Below, piece after piece: positions 28,159 to 45,589 of a stretch of 64,000 nucleotides of DNA (positions are counted from its first letter, which is position 1; each line of letters opens with the position of its first letter). The stretch is from Pseudarthrobacter sp. AL07 (lineage in GTDB: Bacteria; Actinomycetota; Actinomycetes; Actinomycetales; Micrococcaceae): contig NZ_JASBRB010000007.1 of assembly GCF_029960665.1 (NCBI RefSeq), positions 62,001-126,000 of the forward strand, written 5' to 3'. The translations under genes and the position numbers were made by a program. The notes under the pieces were generated by a model, which saw only the letters and a program-made list of their open reading frames with translations, was not told the origin of the DNA and searched no databases.

Positions 28159-28194
28159 ATGAGAACGGCCGCCGCGAAGGCCGGTGCCAGATGA
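28159..28194 (+). CDS. Possible 11-codon leader peptide
   Basis: ATG at 28159, preceded by GAAGGAC, encodes MRTAAAKAGAR and stops in TGA overlapping the ATG of the DegT-family gene (ATGA). The arrangement would couple translation of the two. It is short, and the DegT frame may instead begin at 28140. Confidence 0.3.
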   Translation: MRTAAAKAGAR

Positions 28195-29354
28195 CGGCTG
28201 AAACCGTCCTGGCCCGCATCAACGTCATGGAATCCTGGCTCGGCGAGGACGAAGCCCGCGCCGTGGCGGAGGTCCTCGCCTCCGGCATGCTGACGCAGGG
28301 GCCGAAGGTCCAGGCGTTCGAGACGAAGTTCAGCGCCGTCCAGGAGGTGCGCCACGCGGTGGCGACCTCCAGCAGCACCACCGCGCTGCACCTGGCCCTG
28401 GTGGTGGCCGGTATCGGCCCCGGGGACGACGTGGTTGTTCCATCACTGGCCTTCATCGCCGCCGCGAATGCGGTGACGTATGTCGGGGCACGGCCCGTCT
28501 TCTGCGACGTGGACCCGGCCACAGGCACCGTGACCGCACCTGCGGTCCGGGCCGCACTGACCCTTGACACGCGGGCCGTGATCGTGGTGGACCAGGGCGG
28601 CGTTCCGGTTGACCTGGATCCCGTCCGCGAGCTGTGCGACCGTCACGAAATCACCGTGATCGAAGACGCCGGCTCGGCTGTTGGCTCAGAATACAAGGGC
28701 AGGCCCGTGGGCGCGGGGGCGGACATTGCCGTGTGGTCGTTCCACCGGGACAACGTGGTGACTACGGGCGAGGGCGGCATGCTCACAACCCACCGGGCGG
28801 ACTGGGCGGCCCGGGCCAGGAGCCTGCGCGGCCACTCCCTGAGCGTGGCGGCGGCGAACCACCGCCGGTCCCGCATGGCCGCACCCGAGGTGTATGTCGA
28901 GGTCGGCTTCGACTACCAGATGACGGATCTGCAGGCCGCCGTCGGCATTGTGCAGCTGGGCCGGCTGGCCGGGATAGTGGCTCGCCGCCGGGAAATCGCC
29001 GCGAGGTATGAGGCAGGCCTTTCCGGCCTGGCCGGGCTCCGGTTTGTGGCCGACCCGCCGTACGGGACCACCAACTTCCAGTCCTTCTGGCTCGAAGTCC
29101 TCCCGGGCTTCGCGACGGACCGTGAAGGGCTCCTGGCCCGCCTGGCCGATGCCGGAATTTCGGCACGCCGCGGCGCCATGGCGGCACACCGGCAACCTGC
29201 CTACCGGTGGCGGGATACAGGCAACGCAGGTCTTCAGACCACCGAACGGCTGACCGACCGGACCCTGGTTCTCCCGATTTTCCACGGCCTGGACAACGTG
29301 GGCCTGAACCGCATCATGAACAGCGTTCGGGCGGCCGCCGGGGTCCACCGGTGA
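28191..29354 (+). CDS. DegT/DnrJ/EryC1-family protein, PLP lysine absent
   Basis: Family members transfer an amino group to nucleotide sugars using PLP. This 387-residue protein keeps the fold I features (FSAVQEVRHAVATSSSTTALHLAL, VIEDAGSAVGSEYKG with the PLP-stacking and Asp positions, and GEGGML), but the catalytic lysine of the S-F-H-x-x-K-x4-GEGG motif is Asn188 (SFHRDNVVTTGEGG). It therefore cannot form the usual internal aldimine; ColD-like dehydratases, which have His there, are a precedent for altered chemistry. Followed directly by an acetyltransferase remnant. Start could also be the in-frame ATG at 28140. Confidence 0.85.
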   Translation: MTAETVLARINVMESWLGEDEARAVAEVLASGMLTQGPKVQAFETKFSAVQEVRHAVATSSSTTALHLALVVAGIGPGDDVVVPSLAFIAAANAVTYVGARPVFCDVDPATGTVTAPAVRAALTLDTRAVIVVDQGGVPVDLDPVRELCDRHEITVIEDAGSAVGSEYKGRPVGAGADIAVWSFHRDNVVTTGEGGMLTTHRADWAARARSLRGHSLSVAAANHRRSRMAAPEVYVEVGFDYQMTDLQAAVGIVQLGRLAGIVARRREIAARYEAGLSGLAGLRFVADPPYGTTNFQSFWLEVLPGFATDREGLLARLADAGISARRGAMAAHRQPAYRWRDTGNAGLQTTERLTDRTLVLPIFHGLDNVGLNRIMNSVRAAAGVHR

Positions 29355-29361
29355 GCGCCCT

Positions 29362-29502
29362 GAGGGCTGCCGGATCGGCCGCGGCAGCATTCTCCTGAAG
29401 AACGTGACCCTGACAGCCTCTGTCACGCTCGGGTCCCATGTTCTGAGCAACGTGCCCGATGGCGAAACGTGGGTAGGCGTCCCGGCCCACCCCATCGATC
29501 AC
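29362..29502 (+). pseudogene. PglD/NeuD-like acetyltransferase remnant
   Basis: One frame reads GCRIGRGSILLKNVTLTASV then TLGSHV and passes straight into LSNVPDGETWVGVPAHPI. The first piece is the start of a left-handed beta-helix of sugar O/N-acyltransferases, the second is the last turn of the same fold; the hexapeptide repeats normally between them are missing, as is the N-terminal Rossmann part. It is therefore a gene fragment with 5' loss and an internal deletion. In intact loci such a gene acetylates the amino sugar made by the DegT enzyme. Confidence 0.75.
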
Positions 29503-29654
29503 GCAAAGCCGAGGGTAAGGAACGCCGAGCGCAAGGGGACGCACCGCCGTCGTGACTTCCGTTACCTGATTGTGATTAATCACGTCCGGTCCTGTAGGGT
29601 CGATCAGTGGGCCGCCCCAGCCGGCCCCAATCCCGGATGACGTCTAACTCTGCC

Positions 29655-29802
29655 GCGTTCGGGATCCACTAGGTTTCAGGCAGAGGCGGGGGACCCAGAG
29701 TGTCCGGGCCACGGCTTTAAGCCGGCCCTGGGGTGAAGCCGCATTGCGCGGCCGGATGGCCTCATCCGAACCCGACAGCTAACTCCGCAGGCGTTGAGAG
29801 GT
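29655..29802 (+). promoter_or_regulatory. c-di-AMP riboswitch (ydaO/yuaA type)
   Basis: The leader of the GH16 gene carries the conserved blocks of the ydaO class: GGGGGACCCA near 29688, CTGGGGTGAAGCCGC near 29728, and CCGACAGCTAACTCCGCAGG followed by CGTTGAGAGG at 29772-29801, ending just before the ATG at 29811. The terminal block includes or abuts the GAGAGG ribosome site, so ligand binding could control translation or transcript elongation. In actinobacteria this class is typically upstream of cell-wall hydrolases and resuscitation factors. Confidence 0.88.
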
Positions 29803-29810
29803 AATCACCC

Positions 29811-30923
29811 ATGTCTGCACCCAATGATCAGCCGCGCCCTGACGCGCGCCCTTATTCCGAAGAAGCCGCCGCGCCCACCCAGCGGCGGTCTGTGCTGAAG
29901 AAGTCCGCCAGCCGTGCCAAGACCCAGCGCAACATGTCGCTGACCGCGGCCGCGCTCGTCGCGCTGCTGGGAGTCGTTGCCCTCGGCCAAGTCTCCGACC
30001 AGGCACCCCAAAGTGCCGAATTGAGCCGCGTCGCGGACACGTCCAGTCGCGCCCAGGCACCGGGACAGGTCAAGCGCAACACCAACCCTGTTCCGGCACC
30101 GCTGCCGGCCACAGACCCCTCCACCGAGCCGATCACAGCTCCGGCCCCGGCGCCTGCAACGACCACGGCTGCTCCCGCGCCGGCACCCGCCCCGACGACG
30201 GCAACGGCGACAGCGACGGCTGCTCCCGCGCCGGCACCCACCTTGGCGCCGCTGGCGGCAACGGGCGCCATGCCGGCTGGTGTGCCCGGTGCGTGGACCA
30301 TGGCTTTTGCCGACGAATTCAACGGCACGGCCCTGGACGCGTCCAAATGGTCCAACTGCTGGTTCTCCTCCAACTGCGGCACCATGAACAAGGTCAGCAC
30401 CAGCCCCAGCAACGTTTCCGTCAACGGCGGCAACCTTGTCCTCTCACTGAACTCGTCGTCGTCGGGCTCCCTGGTTTCAACGAACCCCAAGGGCGGCGCC
30501 ACCACCGGCTACCAGTTCGGCACCGGCTACGTCGAGGCCCGGATCAAGTTCCCCGGTGACGGCACCAACCTCTACAACTGGCCCGCATTCTGGACCACCG
30601 GCCAGACCTGGCCCACCAACGGCGAGAACGACATCGCCGAGGTCCTCAGCGGCAAGATGACCGTGAACTACCACTCAACCTCCGGGGCCCACAACCAGGG
30701 AACCGTTCCCGGAAACTGGGGCAACAGCTTCCACACCTACGGCCTGCACCGCACGGCTACCTCCTCCGACGTCTACTTCGACGGAGTGAAGGTCAAGTCC
30801 TACCCCACGGACGACGGCGGCGCGCCCCAGTACATCGTGCTGAACGTTGGCGCGTCCAGCACCGCACCCGCCTATGGGGCTGCCTCGCAGGTTCAGGTCG
30901 ACTACGTGCGCGCCTGGCAGTAA
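29811..30923 (+). CDS. Exported GH16 family glycanase
   Basis: A 370-residue protein: basic cytoplasmic N-terminus, one membrane/signal helix (MSLTAAALVALLGVVALG, residues ~43-60), an Ala/Pro/Thr linker, and a GH16 jelly-roll domain. The catalytic motif is GENDIAEV with Glu272, Asp274 and Glu277 as nucleophile, helper and acid/base. Substrate is probably a beta-1,3- or related glucan, but the family is broad. It is controlled by the c-di-AMP riboswitch upstream and sits among polysaccharide assembly genes, so remodelling of a surface glycan is likely. Confidence 0.9.
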   Translation: MSAPNDQPRPDARPYSEEAAAPTQRRSVLKKSASRAKTQRNMSLTAAALVALLGVVALGQVSDQAPQSAELSRVADTSSRAQAPGQVKRNTNPVPAPLPATDPSTEPITAPAPAPATTTAAPAPAPAPTTATATATAAPAPAPTLAPLAATGAMPAGVPGAWTMAFADEFNGTALDASKWSNCWFSSNCGTMNKVSTSPSNVSVNGGNLVLSLNSSSSGSLVSTNPKGGATTGYQFGTGYVEARIKFPGDGTNLYNWPAFWTTGQTWPTNGENDIAEVLSGKMTVNYHSTSGAHNQGTVPGNWGNSFHTYGLHRTATSSDVYFDGVKVKSYPTDDGGAPQYIVLNVGASSTAPAYGAASQVQVDYVRAWQ

Positions 30924-30946
30924 ACAGCGTCACGCACGTAAGGTGA

Positions 30947-30990
30947 GCGGACGACGGCGGGACCTCCCGCCGTCGTCCGCTTTCTTTTAT
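30947..30990 (+). terminator. Rho-independent terminator after GH16
   Basis: Perfect 15-bp stem GCGGACGACGGCGGG / CCCGCCGTCGTCCGC with an ACCT loop and a T-rich tail. Confidence 0.9.
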
Positions 30991-31073
30991 TCGCCGGCTT
31001 CCTTTACTGTGTAAACCCGCAGTTGTCGGCGCCGGACCGGTGGAATGTTCCGCTACTCCCGTAAACTCTTGCA

Positions 31074-32240
31074 ATGAAGCTTCTGTACGTCACAGAAAGC
31101 GTGCCCAACCGGGACCCCATGCTGGGGGACGGCAGTTCCATGATTCCGTTCGAGGTGCTGCGGAACCTTCCCGGTGATGTCGCCGTGACGCTCCTGACCT
31201 TCGCCGGACCGGTGGACGTGCCAGCCGTAATCCGCGCCCGCTGCGACGCCGTGCATGTGATGCCCACCCGCAGCCGTGCCTGGGCCACCATCATGTCTGT
31301 CTTTGGCCTGACCGGCCTCGGCAAGCACCAGCGGTCCACTGCCAAAGCCATTGCCACCGCGGCACAACTCTCCGGCCAACACGATGCCACCCTGATCCAT
31401 GGTCCGCACGCCCTCTTCCTGGCCAACTCGGTGCGCGGCCCGCTGGTTTTGCAGACTGTGGATCCCTGGTCGGTCCGCGCCGCGATGGACACGGCCACTG
31501 CCGGCATCCTCCGTCCTGCCTACCGTGCCCGTGAGATCCTGGCCCTGCTTGCCGAAAGGCGCCTTCCCGCGCGTGCCCAGCTCCTCACCGTTGGCGCCGC
31601 GGATGCGCTCACTTGGTCGGAACGGCTGGCGCGGTCCGTCAGGAGCGTTCCCAACGGGGCCGAGGAGTCGGTGCGCGACGCCTCCAGACGGAACGGTCCG
31701 GTGGCCTGTTTTGTCGGCAGCCTGAACTACGGTCCCAACATCGACAGCGCAACCGTCCTGATCAAGAAGATCGCCCCGCTGGTGTGGCAACAGGTTCCAG
31801 AGGCCCGGTTTGTGCTCGCGGGCCGGCGCCCCGAGGCCTCAGTACAAGCCTTGGCCGGCCCCCGGGTGGAGGTCCTCGCCAACGTGCCGTCGGTCCTGGA
31901 GGTCTTCCACGCCGCCGACGTCGCAGTCTTTCCCGATGAACACGGTGTGGGCATCCGGAACTCCGTGCGCGAGGCGCTGGCCGCCGGGCTCCCGGTGGTT
32001 GCGACGCCCATGGCCGCCCGCGAGCAGGATCCCCATCCCTTGCTGGCCGTCGAACCGGACACGGGGGCGTTCGTTGATCACGTTGTGCGGCGGCTGACCA
32101 CGCCCGACCGGCACCAGCTGTCCTCCGGCGGCGGGGCCCTCCGGACGTGGCGGACTGTCGCGGAGGACTACCTGGATGAGGTGGGCGCCGCGATCCGCTC
32201 CGGCGGCACCGGCCTCCAGTCCGGAAAGTCACCAGCGTGA
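31074..32240 (+). CDS. Glycosyltransferase (GT4-like, GT-B fold)
   Basis: A 388-residue transferase that adds a sugar in polysaccharide assembly. The C-terminal half holds ACFVGSLNYGPNIDSATVLI, the donor-site VLAGRRPEASVQAL and the NSVREALAAGLPVVATPMA motif typical of GT4 enzymes, with the nucleotide-binding Glu in VREALA. No membrane segment. It overlaps the flippase gene by four bases (GTGA), so the two are translationally coupled. Donor and acceptor unknown. Confidence 0.88.
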   Translation: MKLLYVTESVPNRDPMLGDGSSMIPFEVLRNLPGDVAVTLLTFAGPVDVPAVIRARCDAVHVMPTRSRAWATIMSVFGLTGLGKHQRSTAKAIATAAQLSGQHDATLIHGPHALFLANSVRGPLVLQTVDPWSVRAAMDTATAGILRPAYRAREILALLAERRLPARAQLLTVGAADALTWSERLARSVRSVPNGAEESVRDASRRNGPVACFVGSLNYGPNIDSATVLIKKIAPLVWQQVPEARFVLAGRRPEASVQALAGPRVEVLANVPSVLEVFHAADVAVFPDEHGVGIRNSVREALAAGLPVVATPMAAREQDPHPLLAVEPDTGAFVDHVVRRLTTPDRHQLSSGGGALRTWRTVAEDYLDEVGAAIRSGGTGLQSGKSPA

Positions 32241-33688
32241 CGTACGCACCCGGGGATCTGGCCCGGACCGCTGTCCGGGGCGCAGCGTGGCAAGGACTGG
32301 CATTCGTTGCCGGAAAGGTGATCATCCTGGTCACCACCATCGTCCTGGCCCGGCTTCTGTCCCCCGAGGAGTACGGCCTGGTGGCGCTGGCCCTGGTTCT
32401 CATGGCCTACGCCGAAACCGTTGCCGACGCCGGCGTGGCACAGGCACTGGTCTATTTGCCCCGCACGGGCGTCATCGCGCGTTCCGCCTTGTTCATCTCC
32501 GTGCTGCTCGGAACGGTCCTGGCCTCCGCCGCCGTCCTGACCGCGCCCTGGCTCGCAGGCCTCTTCAACCTTCCGGGCGCGGCGCCCCTCGTCCAGGTGC
32601 TGGGGGTTTCTGTGTTGGCCACATCCTTCGGGGCGGTCCCGGAAGCCCTGCTGCGACGGGACCTGAAGTTCAAGCCGCTGACCGCAGCACCCGTGATCCG
32701 GGCCGCCACCATGGGAACGGTGACCCTGGTGCTGGCCTTCACGGGCCACGGCGCGTTGTCACTGGCAGTCGGCACGGCCGCGGGGTCCGTTGCGTATGCG
32801 CTCACGTGCTGGTTCCTGGTCCGCAGGAATGCGCCGTGGCAGATCTGGCGGGTGGGCAGGGACGCTCTCCGGGCAAACATTGCCTACGGGGCCCCCGTGG
32901 CGGGAAGCAGCCTACTGGCCCGGCTGATCTTCGACGTCGACTACCTCATCATCGGGCTCTTGCTGGGGGCGCAGGCCCTGGGCTACTACACCCTGGCGTT
33001 CAGGCTTCCGGAGGCCCTGATCCTCAACATCTTCTTTGTACTGTCCACCGTCCTTTTCCCGCTCTACGCTCAGGTGCGCTCGGATCCGGACAGGCTCCGC
33101 GACGGCTACCTGAAGAGCGTCCAGATCCAGACCTTGTACGGCGTCACCGCCGGCGTGGGCCTGGCCGTCCTGGCACCGGTCCTGGTTCCCCTGCTTTTTG
33201 GCCAGAAGTGGACCGACGCCGTGCTGCCGCTGATCTTCCTGGCCCTGTACGCAGCCGTGCGGTCGCTGGGCGCGGGTGCCAACGACGTGTACAAGGCCCT
33301 TGGACGGCCGGGGCTCTCCATCGCGATTTCTGTGGTCCGGCTGGTGATTCTCGTACCGGTCCTGCTGGTCGCCGCCCAGTGGGGCATAGTTGGCGTGGCA
33401 GCCGCGCAACTTGCCGTGGCGTTTTTTTTCGCCTGCGGAATGCAGGTGGTCGCCGCCCGGGTAATCAAGATCAGGGCTCGGCGCCTGGTGCGCGCCGCCG
33501 CGCCAGGCCTGGTCTGTGGGGCTGCTGTGGCCGTGGCCGGGCTGGGCACGTTGGCCCTTCCGGTCCTTGGCCCGGTGGTGACGACCGCCGTCGTGGTGGT
33601 TGTGGCGGTCGGCCTGGTTTACGCGATTCTGCGTCTGGGTTTCCCGTCCCTGTACCGTGAGTTGCTGAAGTTCGTACGACGAGCCTGA
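32237..33688 (+). CDS. Wzx-like polysaccharide flippase
   Basis: A 483-residue MOP-superfamily membrane protein with about 12-14 helices; MTYAPGDLARTAVRGAAWQGLAFVAGK at the start and ARLLSPEEYGLVALALVLMAYA are signatures of lipid-linked oligosaccharide flippases. It would move lipid-linked repeat units across the membrane. GTG start overlaps the stop of the glycosyltransferase. Its presence points to Wzx/Wzy-type or teichuronic-type export for this locus. Confidence 0.9.
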   Translation: MTYAPGDLARTAVRGAAWQGLAFVAGKVIILVTTIVLARLLSPEEYGLVALALVLMAYAETVADAGVAQALVYLPRTGVIARSALFISVLLGTVLASAAVLTAPWLAGLFNLPGAAPLVQVLGVSVLATSFGAVPEALLRRDLKFKPLTAAPVIRAATMGTVTLVLAFTGHGALSLAVGTAAGSVAYALTCWFLVRRNAPWQIWRVGRDALRANIAYGAPVAGSSLLARLIFDVDYLIIGLLLGAQALGYYTLAFRLPEALILNIFFVLSTVLFPLYAQVRSDPDRLRDGYLKSVQIQTLYGVTAGVGLAVLAPVLVPLLFGQKWTDAVLPLIFLALYAAVRSLGAGANDVYKALGRPGLSIAISVVRLVILVPVLLVAAQWGIVGVAAAQLAVAFFFACGMQVVAARVIKIRARRLVRAAAPGLVCGAAVAVAGLGTLALPVLGPVVTTAVVVVVAVGLVYAILRLGFPSLYRELLKFVRRA

Positions 33689-33702: not shown

Positions 33703-34716
33703 CTACGGGCGCTGGCCTTGCACCGCGTGGCGCCAGAGCCAGAAGTCCCTGTCGGACGCCACGGCCTGACGGAGCTTTTCTGTTCCGTGGGCAGCCTCGG
33801 CCTGGCCCTCAAGCCGATACGCCAGCGTGGCTGCCGATCTGGCCCAGGTTGCGATGACCAGCAAGGGAACCAACGCAGCATCCACCCCACGCATTCCCAG
33901 ATGGCCGGCGAGGTGTGCCAGCGCCCACCCACCCGGGCCGAACGCATTGTCAAAGGCGGCGACCTGGCTGCCGCGGTCGAAAGCCTTGGCGCTTGATTCA
34001 CTCAGGTACTGGAGGTAGAAGACCAGGTCATGCCCGGGAACGCCGTCGGTGCGGGCCCGTTCCCAGTCCACCACCTGCAACCCTCCATCGGGCTTAAGGA
34101 AGAGATTGGGGTGGCTCAAGTCGCCATGCTCGACGACGGCGGGAAGCTGCGCGTGGCGCAGCGGCGCCAGTATCTCGTGGGTCCGTTCCACCAGCGCAGC
34201 GATCTCGGGTTCCCGGGACACGAGTCCGGTGAGCGCCTCCAGGGGATGGCTGATGGTCCGGTTGTACCAGCCTTCATTCCGGGCGGCAGCCTGCGTGCAA
34301 GGCAGCGCGTCCACAAAGGCAGTGCCCGCACTGACGGCGCCGCGCAGGTCCGCAGCCACCAGCCGGGGGTCCAAGGGTGCTCCAGTCACCGCAGTTTCGA
34401 CGAGTACCGTATGGGCGCCGACGTCGCAGACGGTGACCACCTGCGGGATGCCGCTGGCGGACCCTTCAGCACCCGTGTTGAGCTGCCGCAGGACGTCGGC
34501 TTCATGGCGCACACTGTCGTTCTCGCCCGGCTGCCGCGGCACCTTGACCACGAGGCTGGGTTCGGTGGCTCCGGCCGCAAAAACCAGAGCCACCACATGC
34601 CTGGATGTGACAAACCTGGGCGTCAGCAGGACACTTTCCCAGCGCCTGCCGATACCGTATCTATCCAGCTCAAGCTCCTGGTAATGCTCCGCCAGGAATC
34701 GGTCGATGAAAGTCAC
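33703..34716 (-). CDS. APH/choline-kinase-fold phosphotransferase
   Basis: A 337-residue kinase-like protein: VVKVP (ATP-binding Lys), catalytic VEHGDLSHPNLFLK (Brenner motif HxDxxxxN), and metal-binding VVDWERA. Resembles aminoglycoside/choline kinases, but in this setting a sugar or lipid alcohol is the likelier substrate than an antibiotic. Its ATG overlaps the stop of the multidomain gene upstream by four bases (ATGA), so the two products are made together. Convergent with the flippase gene. Confidence 0.85.
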   Translation of the reverse strand: MTFIDRFLAEHYQELELDRYGIGRRWESVLLTPRFVTSRHVVALVFAAGATEPSLVVKVPRQPGENDSVRHEADVLRQLNTGAEGSASGIPQVVTVCDVGAHTVLVETAVTGAPLDPRLVAADLRGAVSAGTAFVDALPCTQAAARNEGWYNRTISHPLEALTGLVSREPEIAALVERTHEILAPLRHAQLPAVVEHGDLSHPNLFLKPDGGLQVVDWERARTDGVPGHDLVFYLQYLSESSAKAFDRGSQVAAFDNAFGPGGWALAHLAGHLGMRGVDAALVPLLVIATWARSAATLAYRLEGQAEAAHGTEKLRQAVASDRDFWLWRHAVQGQRP

Positions 34717-36641: not shown

Positions 36642-37494
36642 ACTGCACCGCCCAATCGATCTGCAGATGCCCGGATGTTGTTGCGGCGGGATAGGTTCCA
36701 GTGGCGCGATCCGACGTCTCAGCCTGCAACGTCCACCGCATCGGAGTGTCAGGAACCCCTGACGGCAGCGTCGTCTGATCGATGAGGCGGCCGTCGAAGA
36801 ACCACTGCACCTTCCCCGGTGTCCACTCCGTCGTCGCCACATGCCAACGGCCCGGTCCCGTGGGCGTAAAACTGCGCTCTGGCGGATCGAACTTCACGGC
36901 GCCGTTGGCCAGGGAGTCCTTTATCGCTGATCCGCCATAAAGCGGCCCATCAAGGCCCCCCTCGGGCCAGTCAATCTCACCTTCATGCCAGTTGTCGCTG
37001 ACAGGCCACAGCAGAAAGGCAATTTTATAGCCAGGCATGGAATCGTATCTGAATCTGATGGAGTATCTGCCGTAGGTCTGACCGGCATAACCGAACGGAA
37101 TGACGCTGGCCACCTGGGGGGAACCTGCTGCGGAATGGAGAAAATAGTCAAGCTTTCCGTCCTTCACGGAGAGAACTTGGTCCGGCGCGTAGGCCCCTCT
37201 GCCCGAACTGTCGGCAAAGCCGGCGTATCCCCTCATCTCGGCGCCGTAGGCGTCGCCCACTTTCCCCGCGCCCGCCGACGTCGTAAAACCCTGCGCACCC
37301 GTTTGTTTCCATCCGGGAAGATCCCCGACAGGCATTTCTGTTGACCTTTCCGTGATTGCGGCCGGAATCCAAACTGCTCCCGAAATTAGTGCCGCTGACG
37401 CAACAATGGTCGCCCCCAGAAGTTTTCGGAGCAGGGGGTTTCTAACCGACCGACTTGAATTTATAGATTCTGACCGTATCGTTGCTGAAGACAT
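36625..37494 (-). CDS. Exported GH16-like protein
   Basis: A 289-residue protein with a single N-terminal hydrophobic segment (LLGATIVASAALISGAVWIPA), followed by a GH16 jelly roll containing HEGEIDWPEG, which keeps the E-x-D-x-x-E catalytic pattern. The family cleaves or transglycosylates beta-glucans, agars and similar polymers; substrate unknown. It overlaps the end of the large membrane protein gene by 53 bases and the next gene by up to 17, consistent with one operon. Start ATG 37494 is chosen; an ATG 60 bases upstream is less likely. Confidence 0.85.
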   Translation of the reverse strand: MSSATIRSESINSSRSVRNPLLRKLLGATIVASAALISGAVWIPAAITERSTEMPVGDLPGWKQTGAQGFTTSAGAGKVGDAYGAEMRGYAGFADSSGRGAYAPDQVLSVKDGKLDYFLHSAAGSPQVASVIPFGYAGQTYGRYSIRFRYDSMPGYKIAFLLWPVSDNWHEGEIDWPEGGLDGPLYGGSAIKDSLANGAVKFDPPERSFTPTGPGRWHVATTEWTPGKVQWFFDGRLIDQTTLPSGVPDTPMRWTLQAETSDRATGTYPAATTSGHLQIDWAVQYAYAP

Positions 37495-39709
37495 TCTCGA
37501 CCCCGACCCCCTTCTCAAGCAGTCCCTCCAGCTTCGGTAAGTATTCGGCCTCAAAGCGCTTCTTTTCTACCGCGTCACGTTTCTGTTCATCGGTAACAAT
37601 CACGTAGTTGTTTTCTGCACCGCGAAGATGATCAGCATATGCACGCAAACCTGCAACACTGATATTTCCATCAGCCTCTTTGAAGTAGTCAACCAGCGAG
37701 GACACACTTCCCCATTTGAGATAGTGCGGATAATTTGGTCCCACCAGAAGCGGGAAGAAGTACTTCGTATCAAAAACGAGGTCCCCGGGGTTGGTATTCA
37801 CATCAAGCCATTGGCTTGCGGCGACGTCGTCCTTCGAAACGCGGTAATCCGCCTCAGGCTGGAAGTGCACCAAGGTAAACAGCATGGCCATGGCGAGAAG
37901 AGTTGCACTGGCCCCAACGACGGTCCGGCGGGTCCGCACGGGCCCGGACCAGAACAGCCAGGCCACGCCGATGGACAGCCAGGGCAAGGCGAAGAGGAAG
38001 ACCCTGAAGCGCGCCTCTCCGCCGTACGACTGCGCCAGCAGTCCGAGCGTTGGCGCGAAGGCCAGCCAGGCAACCACCAAGGTGGTTCGCACGTGGCCGT
38101 GCAGCAGGCGGCGGACAAATCCCGCAACGGCCAGCACTCCGGTGGCGAGCGTGAGCACCACGGCAAGATGCGCCAGGGTCTGCCCCGACAGCACCCAGGT
38201 GCCGAGGGTCAGCGGCTCGGTGGGCGGCGGGCGGTAGCCAGTGTTGGCGAAGATGTTGAAGCCGCTGAAGAGCCCGTATTTTCCGCTGACATAGGCAAGA
38301 TTAGGAATAAAATATGCCAACGGTATTGCCAGTATCGCTGGTCCCATCCAGCGCGGCCTGAAATGGCCCGACATAAAGAGCGGGAAGAGCCCCAGTACGG
38401 CGAGGTAGGGCGTCAACTGGTGGCTGACGACAATCACGGCCTGAATTATCAGAATGGCCACACATGCCATTAGTTGCCCCGGCGAAGCGGGCTGTTCCCA
38501 GATGCCGGGCATTGCCACCGGACGCTGTCGCTTCACCCGCTGGACCAGCCGCGATTTCCTGATCCGCATTTCGAAGCCGGTCATCCATTTAAACGGAACG
38601 CCCCTCAGGAATGACAGCGCAATGAGGCACATGGCCAGGTACAGGGAATAGGAATAGGACTGCGGCGCGTAGTAATTCTGGTTCACCCAATTGGCAAGGG
38701 TGAATACAAGCGTTGCAGTCCAGTAGACGCGCACCCTGTCGGAGATCGTGCGCACGATCGCGAGGACAAGAACCGCATCAACCAGGGCAAATCCGGTTTC
38801 GGCCCACCCAGCGTAGTCAAGGGCGTTCCGATATCCCATCACTTCGCCCAGGTAGGCACTGAGCGCAAAAAACCCGGGCCAACGGTTGTAGATATCGATC
38901 GAGGGATCCACATGCCCGGTGGCCGTGATGAAGTTCGTGACGGCGATGTGTTTGTAGGTCCAGGGAAACCTGGGGACCGCGGCGAGCAGGCCCGCTGTCG
39001 AATATAGGACAACCACGAGGCTGGAGACGGAGACGCTCATCAGCAGAGTGGAGAACGTATTTCGAGCCACCACTCCGTAGACACACATGCCCACGACGAG
39101 CCCTACGGCGACATACCAGGCAAGCGGAAGCTCGGGCAGCAGCCCGAAATCGTCCAGCCTGCCACGACCGGCAGTGGCCAGCCCAAAAACCCAAAGGGCA
39201 GCTGCAGCCGCGAGGGTTAACCAGGGCAGCGCCGCCTTGGCCCGGGAGCGCACCTGGGGTTTCCATCCCCCGGCGACGCGTGGCCGGGAGCCACCGCTTG
39301 CAGTGCCCCGAACGAAGGCGCCCGGTGAGTAAGGGCCCGGCTTCAGGACAATGAAGCCCACGGCTGCGAGGACGACGGCGGCCGCGACCTGCCGTGGAAA
39401 CCACAACCCCGTCCACGCCATAGCCAAAGCCAAAGTGGTGTAAACCGCGGAGCTGGCCGCCACCGTCCAGACCAGCCGCGACGCCCGGTCCGCGGCGGGA
39501 AGCCGGGACAGCACCACCCACCCCGGCAAGGCCAGGCAGACCACCAACTTGAAGGCAGCCCAAGGTGCTCCGCCGATGTCAAGGAGGATGAGGATGGCTG
39601 CAGCGAGTCCGAATAGCGCCAGCACCGCATCGAAGTACCGCGGCCGCCTGGCCGCTGCACGTGCGGGGGACAGTGGCGGGGAAGCTTCGTTCCGGATCAG
39701 CAGAGCCAT
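37442..39709 (-). CDS. Large polytopic membrane protein of glycan locus
   Basis: A 755-residue protein with roughly 13-15 hydrophobic helices, a cytosolic-looking basic loop (KWMTGFEMRIRKSRLVQRVKRQRP) in the middle, and a C-terminal soluble domain of about 120 residues after the last helix. This layout recalls membrane-embedded glycosyltransferases or polymerases (GT-C type) and Wzy-like proteins, but no diagnostic motif is certain. AGGAGG 8 bases upstream fixes the start at 39709. Its position between GT2 genes and a GH16 gene makes a polymerase or lipid-linked sugar transferase the best guess. Confidence 0.7.
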   Translation of the reverse strand: MALLIRNEASPPLSPARAAARRPRYFDAVLALFGLAAAILILLDIGGAPWAAFKLVVCLALPGWVVLSRLPAADRASRLVWTVAASSAVYTTLALAMAWTGLWFPRQVAAAVVLAAVGFIVLKPGPYSPGAFVRGTASGGSRPRVAGGWKPQVRSRAKAALPWLTLAAAAALWVFGLATAGRGRLDDFGLLPELPLAWYVAVGLVVGMCVYGVVARNTFSTLLMSVSVSSLVVVLYSTAGLLAAVPRFPWTYKHIAVTNFITATGHVDPSIDIYNRWPGFFALSAYLGEVMGYRNALDYAGWAETGFALVDAVLVLAIVRTISDRVRVYWTATLVFTLANWVNQNYYAPQSYSYSLYLAMCLIALSFLRGVPFKWMTGFEMRIRKSRLVQRVKRQRPVAMPGIWEQPASPGQLMACVAILIIQAVIVVSHQLTPYLAVLGLFPLFMSGHFRPRWMGPAILAIPLAYFIPNLAYVSGKYGLFSGFNIFANTGYRPPPTEPLTLGTWVLSGQTLAHLAVVLTLATGVLAVAGFVRRLLHGHVRTTLVVAWLAFAPTLGLLAQSYGGEARFRVFLFALPWLSIGVAWLFWSGPVRTRRTVVGASATLLAMAMLFTLVHFQPEADYRVSKDDVAASQWLDVNTNPGDLVFDTKYFFPLLVGPNYPHYLKWGSVSSLVDYFKEADGNISVAGLRAYADHLRGAENNYVIVTDEQKRDAVEKKRFEAEYLPKLEGLLEKGVGVENVFSNDTVRIYKFKSVG

Positions 39710-39775: not shown

Positions 39776-41083
39776 TCACTGCGTCTTGGCAGCTCCTGCC
39801 CGGCGTTCGAGCAGATAGTTGAGCGGTCCCCGTGCCAGCGAGTACCGCTCGAGCCGCAATACCTGGGCGAGTTGTTGATCCCAGGAATCATGGCCCTGGC
39901 TGTGCCCGCCTATCAGCCGGCGCGGTGCGCCCGCGCCTTGCAGGACATTCCAGGCGACGCGCGGAGCGCGGGCCAGTGCCAGCCGCGCCGTATTGGGGTC
40001 CAGCAGAATTTTTGTGAGCCATGCACCGAGTCCGCTGCCGTAGCCGCGCGCCTGGGCGCTCAATTCGTCCAGGCCATCACGGTGACGGTGCCAGACAATC
40101 GCGGACGGCTGAACCACCAGGCTGTACCCCTCGAGAATCACGCGGGTGAACATGTCAATGTCTTCGCCGCCTCCGGTACGGGTCCCAACGCCCAAAGCGT
40201 TGTCGAAACCGCCCATGCTTAGTGCCGTTTTCCGATCCAGCGCGAAATTTGCTCCGGTTCCGAAGGCGCCAGGGCAGAAGGGGAACTTCGGAAGCCCCGG
40301 GGGCGGATCAGCGAAGGAGTAGACCTTGGACTCCGTGCACTTGGACCAGTTAACCCGGTTATTGAAGTATTCCTGGGCCGGCGAACGCAGCTCGCCGGCC
40401 GGCACGAGCCCTGTGACGCAGGCCGTCCCCGGCATGCGTTCGAACCCTGCGGCAATTTCGCGCAACCACGCCCCGTCAACCACGACGTCGTCATCGGTGA
40501 AGGCAACGATGTCACCCGGCGCATGGCGCAGGCCCGCATTCCGCGCCTGCGACAGTCCGGGGGCGGGCTCGGTGACAAGCCTGATCCGCGGATCACCAAA
40601 CTCGTCACGCACCATCTTGCGGGTCTCGTCCGTCCGTGGCGCATTGTCCACCACCAGGACATCGAAATTGGGGTAGTCCAGCTTCAAGATGGCAGTCAGT
40701 GAACCTCGAAGCAGTGCGGCGCGGTCCCGAGTGCAGACCACAACCGTGACCGACGGCGTTGCGGTTCCTGCGGTCATCGGCTCAACGACTGGAAGTGCCA
40801 CGGCAGCCTCCTCCAGGGCGTCCCGCTGGACCATTCCCCCTGGCGCCTCCACATCGACGAAGCCACGAACCGCTGTCCCTTGGCGCACCAACAACCGTGC
40901 TCGGCGGTAGCCCGCGTGATTGAGCAGCTGCAATTGGGTGTGACCGGTAAGCCATTCCATATCAACGGCACCGATCCAGCGGGCTCCCGGCCACTCCGAC
41001 GGGAGGGAACTCTCCATGGCCGGTGCCAGCTCAAAGGCAGCCCGCTCCTCTACAGGCAGGATCTCACCGACACGTTCGCTCAC
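39776..41083 (-). CDS. Family 2 glycosyltransferase
   Basis: A 435-residue inverting GT-A enzyme. The GT2 core begins at TPSVTVVVCTRDRAALLRGSL, with the donor/metal motif IVAFTDDDVVVDGAWL (DDD, DxD type) and a later GGGEDIDMFTRVILEG (catalytic ED). An N-terminal ~100-residue extension is of unknown role. The GTG at 41083 overlaps the upstream stop by four bases and has GGAGG about nine bases before it, which decides the start. Confidence 0.88.
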   Translation of the reverse strand: MSERVGEILPVEERAAFELAPAMESSLPSEWPGARWIGAVDMEWLTGHTQLQLLNHAGYRRARLLVRQGTAVRGFVDVEAPGGMVQRDALEEAAVALPVVEPMTAGTATPSVTVVVCTRDRAALLRGSLTAILKLDYPNFDVLVVDNAPRTDETRKMVRDEFGDPRIRLVTEPAPGLSQARNAGLRHAPGDIVAFTDDDVVVDGAWLREIAAGFERMPGTACVTGLVPAGELRSPAQEYFNNRVNWSKCTESKVYSFADPPPGLPKFPFCPGAFGTGANFALDRKTALSMGGFDNALGVGTRTGGGEDIDMFTRVILEGYSLVVQPSAIVWHRHRDGLDELSAQARGYGSGLGAWLTKILLDPNTARLALARAPRVAWNVLQGAGAPRRLIGGHSQGHDSWDQQLAQVLRLERYSLARGPLNYLLERRAGAAKTQ

Positions 41084-42078
41084 TGGACTTCCCTCCATGG
41101 TGCGCCCGCCAGGGCAGTCCCGGACAGCGAGCGGCCTTCGGCGTGGGCGGTCTGCCGGCCGCGCACGTACCCTGCGGCCGTGCACGCGAGAACGGCAATA
41201 ACAGCTCCAGCACGTCCCAGGCCCTGGGGGTTGTCGCCTCGGCTCCAGTCGCGGATTCCGGAAAATACAGCGCGGGGCAGCGTGCTGCGGACGTACCTCC
41301 GTTCCGGGCCGAGGGCCCGCTTCTGGCCCACGATCCGGCTGACCTGCGCTTTGGAGATCCCCTCGGACCAGGACCTCGACATCATGTAGCGAAAGGTGCC
41401 TCTGTCCGCCGGCACGTGGTGGCGTACCAGGGCCGCCGGTTCGTAGACGATCCGCGATCCGGGGGCGCCCATTTTGGAGCGGATGCAGATCTCGGTCTCC
41501 TCGCAGCCAAGCGGCAAGGTGCCCTGTCGGCCCAGCGAGAGGTTGAAGCCGCCAACCTGACGGAGGACTTCAAGCCGGAAGGACATGTTTGCGCCGATAA
41601 CATTCCGGACTTCGGAAGCCACCTTGGGCATTCCGCGGTGGCTGCATCCGACGATCCAGTCGAGCTCTTCACCGAAAAAGCCCGGACGGCCCTTTTCCCA
41701 CACGGGTTCGACGCGTCCGCCAACGGCCAGCACGTCAGGATCGTCATAAAGGACAAGCAATCGTTCCAGCCAATCCGGCGCCGCCTCGGCGTCGTCGTCG
41801 AGGAAGGCAACAATGTCTGAATCCGCCAGCCCGACGCCTGTATTGCGTGCACCGGAAAGCCCTCGGGGGCCGCTGCTCTCCACCACCGTTACGTCGTCGA
41901 CAATTTCGATGAGCCGCTCGTAGAGGTCCTCGTTATGGTCAATCACCACCAGGACCTCCTGCGGTGCAACTGTTTGGCCTCGGACGGACTCGATAACGTC
42001 CAGCAAAAGGTCCCAACGCCTCTCGGTGTAGGCACAAATGACGATCGACACGCTCGGACGTCCAATGCGATCCAGCAT
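41080..42078 (-). CDS. Family 2 glycosyltransferase
   Basis: A 332-residue GT2 enzyme: PSVSIVICAYTERRWDLLLD at the start, VAFLDDDAEAAPDWL (DxD-type motif), and LGCEETEICIR in the acceptor region. Likely membrane-associated near its C-terminus (AGAVIAVLACTAAGYV). ATG 42078 follows the previous stop by one base with GGGGAA upstream; the open frame continues 66 bases further but overlaps the upstream gene. One of three consecutive GT2 genes. Confidence 0.88.
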   Translation of the reverse strand: MLDRIGRPSVSIVICAYTERRWDLLLDVIESVRGQTVAPQEVLVVIDHNEDLYERLIEIVDDVTVVESSGPRGLSGARNTGVGLADSDIVAFLDDDAEAAPDWLERLLVLYDDPDVLAVGGRVEPVWEKGRPGFFGEELDWIVGCSHRGMPKVASEVRNVIGANMSFRLEVLRQVGGFNLSLGRQGTLPLGCEETEICIRSKMGAPGSRIVYEPAALVRHHVPADRGTFRYMMSRSWSEGISKAQVSRIVGQKRALGPERRYVRSTLPRAVFSGIRDWSRGDNPQGLGRAGAVIAVLACTAAGYVRGRQTAHAEGRSLSGTALAGAPWREVQ

Positions 42079-42079: not shown

Positions 42080-42943
42080 CTAGCTTCCCCGAACAAGGGA
42101 GAGAACTGCCTGGGGATCGGTTGGCGTTCGCGAAACGCTGACATTTGCGTACGCGTACTTCACCCGCCGGAGGGACTCAGGCCTGGCGCCGGCGGTGGGA
42201 GCCTCCCACATGGTGCATTCGCGTGCCAGCGTGCACAGTACCCGCCACCCGTCGCGGAAAGTTTGCAGATTCGACGCGCCAGAGATTCGATCCAGCTCCA
42301 GGCTAGGGACTTCTGCAATACGCAGACCGGCCTTGGCCGCCCGGACAATCAGCTCGGTCTCAATTTCAAAGCCGTCAGATTCCAGTTGCAAGATCTCCAG
42401 GCATTCCCGTCGAAACGCTATGTATCCATAGCAAAGGTCGGAGTAGTTGCTGTGCAGGACAGTGTTGGCCAGCCCGGTCAGCGCGCGGTTGCCGGCCTTC
42501 CTGAGGCGGGTGAGGTCTTCGGACCCTCCTCCCGTGACATGGCGTGAGCCTTTAACGAAGTCGTAATCGTGCTGGAGCGGGGAAACGAACCAGCCAATCT
42601 CTTGGGGATCCATGCTCCCATCCGCGTCCAGCATGACGATGATGTCTCCTGAGGCTGCGGCAAACCCGGAGCGAAGGGCCACACCCTTTCCCTTGCGCTG
42701 CTCATTGACGATGACGAGGTTGTCGCGGATTGCTTGTGCTACGCCCACTGTGTTGTCCGTGGAACGGCCATCGACGATCACAACCTCGTCCACATACGAG
42801 GGAATCCGACGAAGAACCCACGGAATATTTTTCGCTTCGTTCAGGGTTGGGATGACGACGCTGACTGTGGCCCTGGCAGTTTCTATAGCCGGCATCGAGA
42901 ATGTAATTGGGAGCTGGGTGGAAATGGACAAATACCTCACCAC
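42080..42943 (-). CDS. Family 2 glycosyltransferase (polyprenyl-phosphate type)
   Basis: A 287-residue enzyme of the DPM1/GtrB-like group: TVSVVIPTLNEAKNIPWVL, VDEVVIVDGRSTDNT, IVMLDADGSMDPQEIG (DxD), and GFEIETELIVRAAKAGLRIAEVP are all typical of polyprenyl-phosphate sugar synthases. It lacks C-terminal membrane helices. Probably charges or extends a lipid-linked precursor. First gene of the leftward operon; an internal ATG at 42895 is an alternative start. Confidence 0.88.
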   Translation of the reverse strand: MVRYLSISTQLPITFSMPAIETARATVSVVIPTLNEAKNIPWVLRRIPSYVDEVVIVDGRSTDNTVGVAQAIRDNLVIVNEQRKGKGVALRSGFAAASGDIIVMLDADGSMDPQEIGWFVSPLQHDYDFVKGSRHVTGGGSEDLTRLRKAGNRALTGLANTVLHSNYSDLCYGYIAFRRECLEILQLESDGFEIETELIVRAAKAGLRIAEVPSLELDRISGASNLQTFRDGWRVLCTLARECTMWEAPTAGARPESLRRVKYAYANVSVSRTPTDPQAVLSLVRGS

Positions 42944-42967
42944 TTCATGACGTTTGCGGATTTAGTC

Positions 42968-43003: not shown

Positions 43004-43184
43004 AGCGCTGTATCCGGTCATGGGTCTGGTCTCTGGCCCCAGCTCTCATTAGCCATCGACTCTGGCCGTGATGAAGAGCCTACGGCCGGCCTGACGCAGA
43101 GTCACCAGTAGCCGGTACTCGCTTTTGCGCGGTGGGTCAACGCGTTTCCTCACCCAGTACGGGGGTTATCCGCGGGTCCAGATA

Positions 43185-43230
43185 TTAGGTATAGGGGGTT
43201 CTCATTCCGCCCACAATTTAGGTATAGGGG
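43185..43230. promoter_or_regulatory. Paired direct repeats TTAGGTATAGGGG
   Basis: Two exact 13-bp copies at 43185-43197 and 43218-43230, 33 bp apart (about three helical turns), 125 bases before the PKD-protein gene. Each contains a TATAGG -10-like hexamer, so they may be activator sites or tandem promoters. Confidence 0.45.
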
Positions 43231-43354
43231 AATTCATTGCGAAGCCTCCCTGCCCGGGCTTAGGCTTGTCGCCTAACTGGGGTTTGACCGCTGTTTCTGG
43301 GCCAGCGCGCATAACGGACTTCAGCTGACGATTTTCAAGCGCCCAGGAGCCCCG

Positions 43355-45589
43355 ATGAAGATTGATCGTACCGTCAGGTGGCTGAGCCAAACGCTCATCA
43401 CGGCCCTGATCGTGGCGGGATCCCTCCTGGCTACGTCCCCCCTCGCATCGGCTGATCCGACCTACGGTACGCCGAGCCTAAGCTATTCGGGCGTCAGTAA
43501 TCCGCCGACGTCGGACAAGCCGCAAAGCAAGCTGTGGTGGAATGACGGCTCGTGGTGGGCTGACATGTGGAAAACCGGAAGCGGCTGGTCCATTTTCCGA
43601 CTGGACCGCGCCACGGCGACCTGGGTGGACACGGGCGTACGCAATGACACCCGAGGCAGCACCCTCTCGGATACTTTGTGGGACGGCAGCCACCTCTACA
43701 TTGCCTCGCATGTAGTCACGGTGTCCTCGGATGCGACACCCAAGGTGTCGGTCTCCGGGCAGCCTGCCTACCTGTACAGATACACCTATGCCGGTGGCAC
43801 CTACACCCTGGACAGCGGTTTTCCCACGGTGATCACAAACAACTCCAGCGAATCAATGACCATCGATATCGACTCGACCGGGATGCTCTGGGCAACGTGG
43901 ACACAGGTCACGGGCAACGCGACATCCGGCTTCACCAACAGCGTCTACGTCAATTACGCCGCGAACGGAGACCCTGGCTGGGCCACCCCGTTCGTTGTTC
44001 CGGTCTCTAATCCGAACCCCGCCCCTGACGATATTTCAGCTGTGGTGGCATACGGGAAAAAGAAAATCGGCGTGATGTGGAGCGACCAGCTCACTGGTTC
44101 TGTCTGGTGGGCAACGCGCACCGATGGAACAGCTCCAACGGCGACGGCATCGTGGAAAGTCCAGCCAGCGATCCAGGGAAAAGGACAGGCAGATGACCAC
44201 CTGAACCTAAAGACCCTTCAGGCGGACACCTCCGGCCGGGTCTTCGCAGCGGTCAAGACGAGCCTGAACGACACTTCATCCAACAAGACGCTCCCCCAAC
44301 TGCTGCTGCTGGTTTTCAAGCCGGGAACCGGGTCTTTCTCCACGTCGACAATTTCCGTAGCCGGCGACTGCGTCTCACGTCCCCAGATCATGCTGGACAC
44401 CCAGAACAACCTCGTCCGGGCCTTCCAGACCGCGCCGCCAACATCCGTGAGTGGCTGTGCCTACTCCGGCGTGGCGGGCAGCATCTATGAGAAGACCGCG
44501 TCCATGGACAACCCGGTATTCGGATCCGGACGAGGCACGCCCGTCATCCAAAGCGCGTCGTCGTCGAACATGAATGACGTGACCACAACCAAGCAGAGTG
44601 TGGACAACTCCACCGGCATTGTGGTGATGGCCAGCGACCACGTGGCAAAGCGCTACTGGTTCTCGGACCGGCCCCTGGGACCGGTAACACCGCCGCCCGC
44701 ACCAGCAGCAGCTTTCACAGCCGAACCCACCACCGGAACCGCACCGCTAAACGTCAACTTCACCGACACCTCCACCGGCACACCCACTTCCTGGGCCTGG
44801 ACCTTCGGCGACGGCGGAACCTCCACCGCCCAGAACCCAGCCCACACCTACGCAGCCGCAGGCACCTACACAGCCACACTGACCGCCACCAACGGCGGCG
44901 GCACAAGTTCCGCCACCACAACCATCAACGTCAACCCGGCTCCCCTGGCCGGCGGCGTAACGGTGGTCGGCTCAGCAACCACGTTCGCGGGAACGGCGGC
45001 CTCCGCTGTGTCGTTGCAGGCACCGGCCGGAACGTCCCCCGGAGATGTGCTGGTCGCGGCCATCACGGCGGACCTGAATCCGTCCATGGCCTCGGTGCCT
45101 GCTGGGTGGATCCCCCTGGTGAATGCCCTTTCGATCAACAGCGGGTCAACATCCGGTGCCCGGGCCTTCGCCTATTACCATGTGGTGGGCGCCGCCGATC
45201 CGGCAAGCTACAACTGGACGTTGAACACTTCCGTGCGGTGGGGCGGCGGCGTTACCGCCTACCGCGGCGTCGATAACGCCAACCCGCTGGACGGCCCGCT
45301 GACCACAGCAGTTGACACCACATACTCGGCGACCAGCATCACGGTTCCCGGCAGCACGACCGCCACCAACGGCGCAATGCTGATCGGCGGAGTTGCCTGT
45401 GATTGCGCTTCTCCGGTGGTGACGGCGCCCGCTGGCTGGACGGAGCGGTGGGAGGCCGCCGGTGGCCAGATCGCGGAACTGGCAGACCGGGTCCAAACCA
45501 CCGCTGGCTCCACTGGAGCGTCAACCTGGACCCTGAGTGCGGCGCGGGCTGTTGCTGCGTGGCGGACGGCGCTCAGGCCGGCCAGCTGA
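43355..45589 (+). CDS. Secreted PKD-domain protein
   Basis: A 744-residue exported protein: signal peptide (TLITALIVAGSLLATSPLASA, cleaved near residue 33), a ~430-residue domain with propeller-like repeats (LWWNDGSWWADMW, TDTLWDG-type blocks), one PKD domain (FTAEPTTGTAPLNVNFTDTS ... WTFGDGGTSTAQNPAHTYAA, about residues 450-530), and a C-terminal beta-rich region. No anchor or enzymatic motif. It may be an adhesin or glycan-binding protein of the locus. Rich in Thr/Ser as usual for exported actinobacterial proteins. Confidence 0.85.
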   Translation: MKIDRTVRWLSQTLITALIVAGSLLATSPLASADPTYGTPSLSYSGVSNPPTSDKPQSKLWWNDGSWWADMWKTGSGWSIFRLDRATATWVDTGVRNDTRGSTLSDTLWDGSHLYIASHVVTVSSDATPKVSVSGQPAYLYRYTYAGGTYTLDSGFPTVITNNSSESMTIDIDSTGMLWATWTQVTGNATSGFTNSVYVNYAANGDPGWATPFVVPVSNPNPAPDDISAVVAYGKKKIGVMWSDQLTGSVWWATRTDGTAPTATASWKVQPAIQGKGQADDHLNLKTLQADTSGRVFAAVKTSLNDTSSNKTLPQLLLLVFKPGTGSFSTSTISVAGDCVSRPQIMLDTQNNLVRAFQTAPPTSVSGCAYSGVAGSIYEKTASMDNPVFGSGRGTPVIQSASSSNMNDVTTTKQSVDNSTGIVVMASDHVAKRYWFSDRPLGPVTPPPAPAAAFTAEPTTGTAPLNVNFTDTSTGTPTSWAWTFGDGGTSTAQNPAHTYAAAGTYTATLTATNGGGTSSATTTINVNPAPLAGGVTVVGSATTFAGTAASAVSLQAPAGTSPGDVLVAAITADLNPSMASVPAGWIPLVNALSINSGSTSGARAFAYYHVVGAADPASYNWTLNTSVRWGGGVTAYRGVDNANPLDGPLTTAVDTTYSATSITVPGSTTATNGAMLIGGVACDCASPVVTAPAGWTERWEAAGGQIAELADRVQTTAGSTGASTWTLSAARAVAAWRTALRPAS

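Follow-up and report, generated by a model that had tools for sequence, protein, structure and literature searches.

The window analysed here, a stretch of 64,000 nucleotides from Pseudarthrobacter sp. AL07, a soil bacterium of the Arthrobacter group (positions 62001-126000 of contig NZ_JASBRB010000007.1, our C85, in a genome of 3.86 Mb in 107 contigs), contains a surface-glycan locus. Its priming enzymes and membrane transferase are similar to those of archaeal protein glycosylation, and the set is found again in several distant bacteria, which suggests a route to surface sugars that is so far uncharacterised. We favour, with moderate confidence, a lipid-monophosphate route, in which an oligosaccharide would be assembled on polyprenyl monophosphate, flipped by Wzx, joined outside the membrane by an enzyme of GT-C fold and processed by GH16 enzymes. 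The locus consists of two converging gene sets, at 28191-33688 on the plus strand and 42943-33703 on the minus strand (Table 1). The plus-strand set encodes a DegT aminotransferase, GH16a, a GT4 glycosyltransferase (GT) and Wzx; the minus-strand set encodes three family 2 enzymes (GT2a, GT2b and GT2c), a 755-residue membrane protein (POLY), GH16b, a three-part protein (TRI) and an APH-fold kinase. A first-pass annotation of the same sequence had described two converging operons here, and all the genes it listed are present at the place and with the polarity it gave.

Among the NCBIfam models, GT2a scored best with AglJ (139.5 bits; equivalog cut-off 325 bits), AglJ and the dolichyl-phosphate hexose transferase models being its closest, and GT2b scored best with AglG (234.6 bits; equivalog cut-off 440 bits). 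AglJ and AglG are also the top families of the Deinococcus and Nonomuraea counterparts. Haloferax AglJ, followed by AglG, puts the first two sugars on one common dolichol phosphate (PMC3871713). No phosphoglycosyltransferase primer was found in the locus: a profile search retrieved no PF02397 (WbaP/PglC-type) primer in the genome, the same search being positive in 9/14 control genomes, and the three PF00953 genes of the genome all lie on contigs other than that of the locus. The AglJ-like and AglG-like enzymes, together with the GT-C-fold protein, point to a lipid-monophosphate pathway, so the attachment chemistry is less undefined than the first-pass annotation had held.

POLY has no Pfam family. 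The structure prediction that had been proposed for this protein yielded an AlphaFold2 model from 22 sequences (predicted local distance difference test score 79, predicted TM-score 0.82) with a GT-C fold, an STT3-like topology and a C-terminal globular domain, as in oligosaccharyltransferases. Structural similarity is given as Z scores from a re-alignment of Foldseek's own matches, for which mostly helical models typically reach a best Z of 14. The top match was STT3 (8agc_A; Z 22.6 over 441 residues, root-mean-square deviation 5.5, model residues 217-754), followed by AglB (3waj; Z 21.4), then ALG12, Pmt4, PglB, AftA and ArnT (Z 18.6-16.5) and EmbC (14.6); the AglB C-terminal domain (3vgp) matched at Z 7.5, and the first unrelated rows appeared at about Z 5. 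These GT-C matches span POLY residues ~215-755. Foldseek itself retrieved the same family (PglB, E 1.2e-5), with low query TM-scores of 0.27-0.39 across the GT-C rows. POLY is thereby predicted to be a GT-C-fold enzyme nearest to oligosaccharyltransferases. A sequence relationship to a solved structure was rejected, as the PDB match, RNA polymerase Rpb6 at E 0.1, was taken as chance.

Within the POLY alignment, R247, H254, Y274, W277-P278, H430-Q431, G563-G564-E565 and R569 are invariant, and D268 and D272 nearly so. WPGFF is exact in 33/38 rows and GGExxxR is found in 37/38. The hallmark motif of the oligosaccharyltransferases STT3, AglB and PglB is WWDxG. It occurs in none of the 38 POLY rows, and none of 22 POLY members matched Pfam STT3 at E up to 1, so an assignment of POLY as a canonical oligosaccharyltransferase was rejected. 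Membership in Wzy_C was likewise rejected, with one weak match (E 0.0041) among 22 members. The earlier remark that no Wzy is obvious therefore holds for sequence families, as Wzy_C, the one Wzy family searched, is absent from the genome (the same search was positive in 9/14 control genomes); at the level of the predicted fold it does not, since POLY is a GT-C candidate.

Distant POLY relatives lack the N-terminal part, and a separate small membrane protein adjoins six of them; the one from locus L052 matches POLY residues 29-105. A hidden Markov model (HMM) of the six small proteins matched 12/12 window-type POLY proteins, with E values between 2e-9 and 9e-6; even with the limit set at E 10 it matched none of the 10 other POLY members, 22 reversed controls or Wzx. 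The window lineage has therefore fused two proteins. Long POLY frames of 1044-1377 residues (L027, L036, L054, L073 and L074) were considered as flippase fusions and rejected; no Pfam domain was found in them at E up to 0.01, and overlong start choices are the likely cause. Several distant rows of POLY alignment A2 start upstream of the likely start codon.

The linkage of POLY with the priming pair recurs well beyond the window. Searches used thresholds of E up to 1e-3 for POLY in the family, 1e-8 for POLY in the phylum (query, the C-terminal 552 residues) and 1e-40 for GT2b. Among 197 genomes of the family, POLY was detected in 14, GT2b in 13 and both in 13, the exception having POLY near a contig edge; among 296 genomes of the phylum, POLY was detected in 12, GT2b in 15 and both in 12 (Fisher tests 2e-19 and 6e-19, respectively, with no phylogenetic correction). 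GT2b was present in 8 and GT2a in 7 of the 10 phylum loci fetched, and in the other two GT2b lies ~34 kb away or on another contig. A plasmid collection gave seven POLY matches, of which four were examined (H3, H6 and H7 were left out); all four loci, from Deinococcus aetherius, Pseudonocardia autotrophica, Ensifer adhaerens and Nonomuraea gerenzanensis, carry GT2a and GT2b within 12 kb. The Deinococcus set comprises six genes: two GT2 enzymes, a further glycosyltransferase, POLY, the small protein and a flippase. Overall, 37 loci were tabulated (L042 was left out as the same region as L024), with GT2b in 30, GT2a in 31 (one, in L030, doubtful by its motif) and GT2c in 23, some of them weak.

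Two frames beside GT2a, L035:16936-19119 (728 residues) and L053:2105-4282 (726 residues), contain two GT2 stretches each, of which one is AglG-like by BLAST. In L028 and L029, long GT2 frames were considered as flippase-containing, a reading rejected because they hold GT2 domains only. Near POLY and beside GT2b, L029:6381-7478 encodes an HPr-kinase-C-like protein (PF07475, 4.6e-5, below cut-off).

We tentatively propose that POLY represents an undescribed GT-C family, recognisable by WPGFF and GGExxxR and by an STT3-like fold without WWDxG. Such a family would polymerise or attach surface glycans from polyprenyl-monophosphate-linked oligosaccharides in Actinomycetota, Deinococcota and Alphaproteobacteria, as a rule with AglJ-AglG-like priming. 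It may represent, in bacteria, the equivalent of archaeal N-glycan assembly redirected towards polysaccharide synthesis, and the GH16 enzymes might reconnect chains through transglycosylation.

Gene order was compared in 11 distinct loci with a window-type POLY (44-86% identical). As these were found by POLY, like the 10 initially fetched relatives and the family and phylum loci, POLY is present in them by construction; the other genes were scored by BLAST inside loci of 20-25 kb, so presence depends on contig ends. Wzx, APH, TRI and GT2c are present in 11/11, GH16b, GT2a, GT2b and PKD in 10/11, and GT4 in 9/11, the other two stretches stopping at Wzx. GH16a (4/11) and DegT (3/11) are less conserved, several stretches being cut short. 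The genes of both operons thus travel together, which supports a coherent glycan locus as the first-pass annotation proposed; the lack of co-conservation that would have spoken against that annotation was not observed. The converging arrangement is not universal, as Wzx lies on the POLY strand in L024.

L026 shares the flanks of the window, with rplI, ssb and rpsF at one end and M18 at the other, but the gene set between them differs, with LuxR, GT2a and GT2b retained. Relative to the window, GT2a is 89% identical and GT2b 82%, with POLY at 31% (28% by BLAST) and most other genes without a close match. More generally, in 106 of 171 locus pairs GT2a identity is 70% or more and GT2b identity 60% or more; within these, POLY identity is below 35% in 42 pairs and 40% or higher in 58, the pairs being non-independent. 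The slot behaves as a cassette site, and its conserved start with an exchangeable remainder resembles serotype loci.

Both GH16 proteins score above the Pfam PF00722 cut-off and retain ExDxxE (ENDIAE in GH16a, EIDWPE in GH16b), a motif found in 12/12 GH16a-type and 16/16 GH16b-type rows. Hydrophobic N-terminal segments were found at residues 43-61 of GH16a and 26-44 of GH16b. The two are the sole PF00722 matches of their genome at E up to 0.001. A GH16 gene is found no more than 20 kb from POLY in 15/24 genomes, against 0.5 expected (0-7 GH16 genes per genome, without correction for kinship), and the earlier suggestion that the glycan is processed by these enzymes gains support.

The three-part protein is well identified in its middle. 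TRI residues 238-429 match a thymidylate-kinase fold at Z 19.2, and a profile comparison with thymidylate kinases of the PDB gave E 1.5e-5; the 50 structural matches listed cover this part only. The three-part description given at first pass is less secure at the ends, where the N-terminus matches a nucleotidyltransferase family weakly and under its cut-off (PF14907, E 0.07; 0.006 in a relative) and the C-terminus has no match in Pfam. The HxDxxxxN motif of APH is present in 15/15 rows, the window included. L069, which belongs to another family of the phylum, also has TRI-like and APH-like genes beside POLY; L033 and L035 have APH-like ones there. Next to POLY, L033 110-2641 is a single frame of 844 residues with flippase (PF01943) and APH (PF01636) domains, which hints at a functional link of the kinase to the flippase or to its cargo. 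WbdD phosphorylates and methylates the chain end (PMC3482155). By analogy, TRI and APH might form a WbdD-like chain terminator or add a phosphate-type substituent. Compared with the WbdD kinase/methyltransferase, APH is here a separate kinase, and the reading is kept as a guess because the TRI C-terminus lacks a Pfam match and the structural matches are limited to the kinase part. A second, shorter TRI copy precedes APH in L040, L043 and L045. By eye, P450-looking and acyl-ligase-looking genes lie between APH and the full TRI in L040, and L046 has the ligase-like one.

According to the lipid-monophosphate scheme, GT2a would load the first sugar onto polyprenyl monophosphate, GT2b would add the second, and GT2c and GT4 would finish the oligosaccharide in the cytoplasm, with DegT supplying an amino sugar. 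The Wzx flippase would turn the lipid-linked oligosaccharide outward, where POLY would take it as donor and join it to an acceptor; the next repeat, and hence polymerisation, is slightly more probable than a wall polymer or a protein. The product may then be trimmed or re-joined by the two GH16 enzymes, which are membrane-associated, and may be bound by the PKD protein. APH and TRI would probably either attach a phosphate-type substituent or end chain growth, and the LuxR protein may regulate the locus. We infer the reactions, donors, acceptors, linkages and chemistry of this scheme, as well as the roles of the kinase and TRI, from computed families, the predicted fold, motifs, co-occurrence, fusions and cassette exchange.

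Several observations weigh against this scheme. Both GT2a and GT2b score far under the AglJ and AglG equivalog cut-offs, and the three PF00953 genes could prime in trans. DxDxQ has been proposed as the hallmark of lipid-monophosphate GT2 enzymes (the DPM, WpsA and GacI group; PMC10821137), and GT2a of the window reads DADGS instead; D[AG]DGS is found in 26/32 GT2a rows, five being unmatched by the pattern used and the one doubtful row deviating. The assignment of POLY to GT-C rests on its predicted fold, because sequence searches tied it to no known GT-C family. A strict Walker A motif is present in only 2/13 TRI rows, the window reading APDGAGKT. The clearest loci without the priming pair are L041 and L031. 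L041 (Arthrobacter pascens) lacks GT2a and GT2b in the 22 kb fetched, with POLY, TRI, APH, Wzx, GT4 and GT2c present; purine-synthesis-like genes, recognised by eye, lie upstream, so the priming pair may sit elsewhere. L031 holds a second POLY relative of genome G177, without GT2a or GT2b in its 20-kb stretch. In the phylum, 3/15 GT2b genomes (64%, 81% and 96% complete) have no detected POLY. Finally, nothing in the analysis directly discriminates between a polymerase and a transferase.

One alternative is protein glycosylation, in which POLY would act like an oligosaccharyltransferase, moving an AglJ/AglG-type oligosaccharide onto secreted proteins as haloarchaeal AglB does, with the PKD and GH16 proteins as possible acceptors. 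The top fold matches (STT3, AglB and PglB) agree with this, as does the place of AglJ and AglG upstream of AglB in Haloferax (PMC3871713), and the minimal six-gene Deinococcus set has no listed GH16. We nevertheless consider it unlikely, given the missing WWDxG motif and Pfam STT3 matches and the presence of GH16 enzymes, which suggest a polysaccharide. POLY is also far more variable than the priming pair, as would be expected of a repeat-unit-specific enzyme, and this strong divergence beside a retained pair mildly favours a repeat-unit-specific polymerase over a general protein transferase. Side-branch decoration appears rather improbable. It would have a lipid-phosphate monosaccharide made by GT2a, flipped and used by POLY on an existing wall polymer, following the logic of GtrA/B/C or GacI/J/K/L, with GT2b, GT2c and GT4 serving another step. 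The four parts of Gac-type systems (a GT-A enzyme, a small membrane protein, a Wzx-type flippase and a GT-C enzyme; PMC8035078) would fit, and the tabulated GT-CA families except GT66 use lipid-phosphate monosaccharides (PMC10920833). However, GT2b is present in 13/14 POLY genomes of the family and 12/12 of the phylum, suggesting an oligosaccharide donor, and GT2c accompanies POLY in many of the tabulated loci.

An ordinary Wzx/Wzy capsule, for which a WecA/TagO-like PF00953 enzyme would prime in trans on lipid-diphosphate, POLY would be a divergent Wzy and GT2a a usual elongating GT2, seems very unlikely to us. PF00953 genes are available elsewhere in the genome, the locus has a Wzx-type flippase, one POLY member shows the weak Wzy_C match and GT2a lacks DxDxQ. 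Against these stand the affinity of GT2a to the AglJ and dolichyl-phosphate hexose transferase models, the absence of Wzy_C from the genome and the GT-CA character of the POLY fold matches; the polymerases of clan GT-C1 are GT-CB, and the other polymerase clans in that source belong to neither class (PMC10920833). As regards what marks a Wzx/Wzy locus, the flippase was found and Wzy_C and an in-locus primer were not. No Wzz/PCP match was found among the scanned locus proteins, the search being confined to these.

By analogy, the nearest characterised logic to the lipid-monophosphate route is that of the lactococcal polysaccharide pellicle (PSP; WpsA/B, WpsG and WpsJ) and of streptococcal GacI-L. 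WpsA and WpsB make GlcNAc-P-C55, strain-variable glycosyltransferases extend it and, in the authors' model, WpsG flips the product and GT-C enzymes polymerise and attach it; assembly of the PSP repeat unit on C55-monophosphate has been proposed and partly shown (PMC10821137). The PSP system (WpsA/B, WpsC-F, WpsG, WpsH/I and WpsJ) resembles the locus, as interpreted here, in its DPM-like priming GT2, small membrane protein, variable glycosyltransferases, Wzx-like flippase and GT-C enzymes, and in a conserved start followed by a variable remainder. Compared by description rather than sequence, the two differ in that here an AglJ-like and an AglG-like enzyme are the first two glycosyltransferases, the small protein is joined to the GT-C enzyme or encoded next to it (in PSP it aids the priming glycosyltransferase), GT2a lacks DxDxQ, GH16, TRI and APH are added, and the locus has no rhamnan genes and one GT-C enzyme found. 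Streptococcal GacI/J/K/L and other multi-component transmembrane glycosylation systems have the four-part composition given above for Gac-type systems (PMC8035078). Here the four parts would correspond in kind to GT2a, the small protein fused to POLY, Wzx and the predicted GT-C fold; the systems described in that source transfer single sugars, whereas here an AglG-like and further glycosyltransferases accompany them.

Two archaeal systems share other features. Haloferax volcanii N-glycosylation (AglJ, AglG and AglB) has the same top families for its first two glycosyltransferases, an STT3-like fold for its last enzyme and, in its second pathway, a flippase (Agl15) acting on a lipid-phosphate oligosaccharide (PMC3871713). 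It differs from the locus here, where POLY lacks WWDxG and a Pfam STT3 match, the glycosyltransferases fall below the equivalog cut-offs, and GH16 enzymes and a probable polysaccharide product are present. The Haloarcula hispanica acidic exopolysaccharide requires AepG, a DPM-like GT2 loading dolichol phosphate (PMC9943897), again in an archaeal setting. Among bacteria, the promonan cluster of Sphingomonas likewise combines Wzx, several GT2 enzymes and a GH16 (prmQ), whose deletion changes colony texture and matrix. It is a precedent for GH16 genes among those for an exopolysaccharide, and differs in having a polymerase of a Wzy family, none being found by sequence here (PMC11340318).

Table 1. 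Genes of the locus and its immediate surroundings, with positions in the window
Feature	Position	Strand	Evidence
LuxR-type regulator with AAA domain, candidate regulator	25303..27993	+	PF13191, PF00196
DegT/DnrJ/EryC1 sugar aminotransferase	28191..29354	+	PF01041 4e-98; top NCBIfam PseC, below cut-off
GH16a; N-terminal membrane anchor or signal, Pro/Ala/Thr-rich linker	29811..30923	+	PF00722 1e-10
GT4 glycosyltransferase	31074..32240	+	PF13692 1.2e-21
MOP/Wzx-type flippase	32237..33688	+	PF13440 1.1e-61; 14 hydrophobic segments
APH-fold kinase, HxDxxxxN motif	33703..34716	-	PF01636 4.9e-15
TRI; nucleotidyltransferase-like, thymidylate-kinase-fold and C-terminal domain without Pfam match; start could be 36602	34713..36641	-	structure match, weak PF14907
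GH16b; N-terminal membrane anchor or signal	~36625..37494	-	PF00722 1.8e-7
POLY; membrane protein, predicted GT-C fold, N-terminal part a fused small membrane protein	37442..39709	-	predicted model, HMM
GT2c glycosyltransferase	~39776..41098	-	PF00535 8.9e-24
GT2b, AglG-like glycosyltransferase (proposed for second sugar)	41080..42078	-	NF041394 1.5e-69
GT2a, AglJ-like glycosyltransferase (proposed priming enzyme)	42080..42943	-	TIGR04182 1.5e-40
Secreted PKD-domain protein, divergent	43355..45589	+	PF18911 3.5e-20

The locus is flanked upstream by rpsF, ssb and rplI (24870-23048) and downstream by an M18 aminopeptidase gene, and its closest named relatives, retrieved through POLY, are in Arthrobacter sp. 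AQ5-06 and Pseudarthrobacter sp. HLT1-5. The LuxR/AAA gene falls outside the 28191-45589 interval of the first-pass annotation; relatives of it flank the locus in L025 and, near GT2a, in L026. A short frame adjoining the M18 gene (46951-47331) has a weak intradiol dioxygenase match (PF00775, 0.006). Nothing in the analysis pointed to phage. Elsewhere in the genome, always on other contigs, there are four LCP-family genes as well as genes for UDP-sugar dehydrogenases, which could provide wall attachment and uronic acids in trans. On contig C32 of the same genome, at ~6-22 kb, UDP-sugar dehydrogenase-family, PF00953 and LCP genes lie within 16 kb, perhaps forming a second, conventional surface-polymer locus.

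The literature searches made found no published polymer locus with this gene set, nor a description of a linked set of AglJ-like, AglG-like, GT-C and GH16 proteins; those on exopolysaccharide loci of Arthrobacter, bacterial AglJ and wall polymers of this group yielded little beyond AepG. The main value of the analysis lies in this linkage, with GH16 often included, across distant bacteria. Loci seemingly without a primer and polymerase are hard to annotate; here that double absence has a likely answer in the AglJ/AglG-like pair and the GT-C-fold POLY, and the linked set makes this answer testable and offers a signature that can be recognised in more than one phylum of bacteria. In the GT-C table of PMC10920833, lipid-diphosphates are the donors of bacterial polysaccharide polymerases, and lipid-phosphate monosaccharides are those of GT-CA enzymes other than the oligosaccharyltransferases. 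If the proposed route is correct, a GT-CA-like enzyme building a bacterial polysaccharide from lipid-monophosphate oligosaccharides would have no place in that table, its nearest case being the GT-C enzymes proposed for lactococcal PSP (PMC10821137), and archaeal N-glycan assembly would be linked to bacterial surface polymers.

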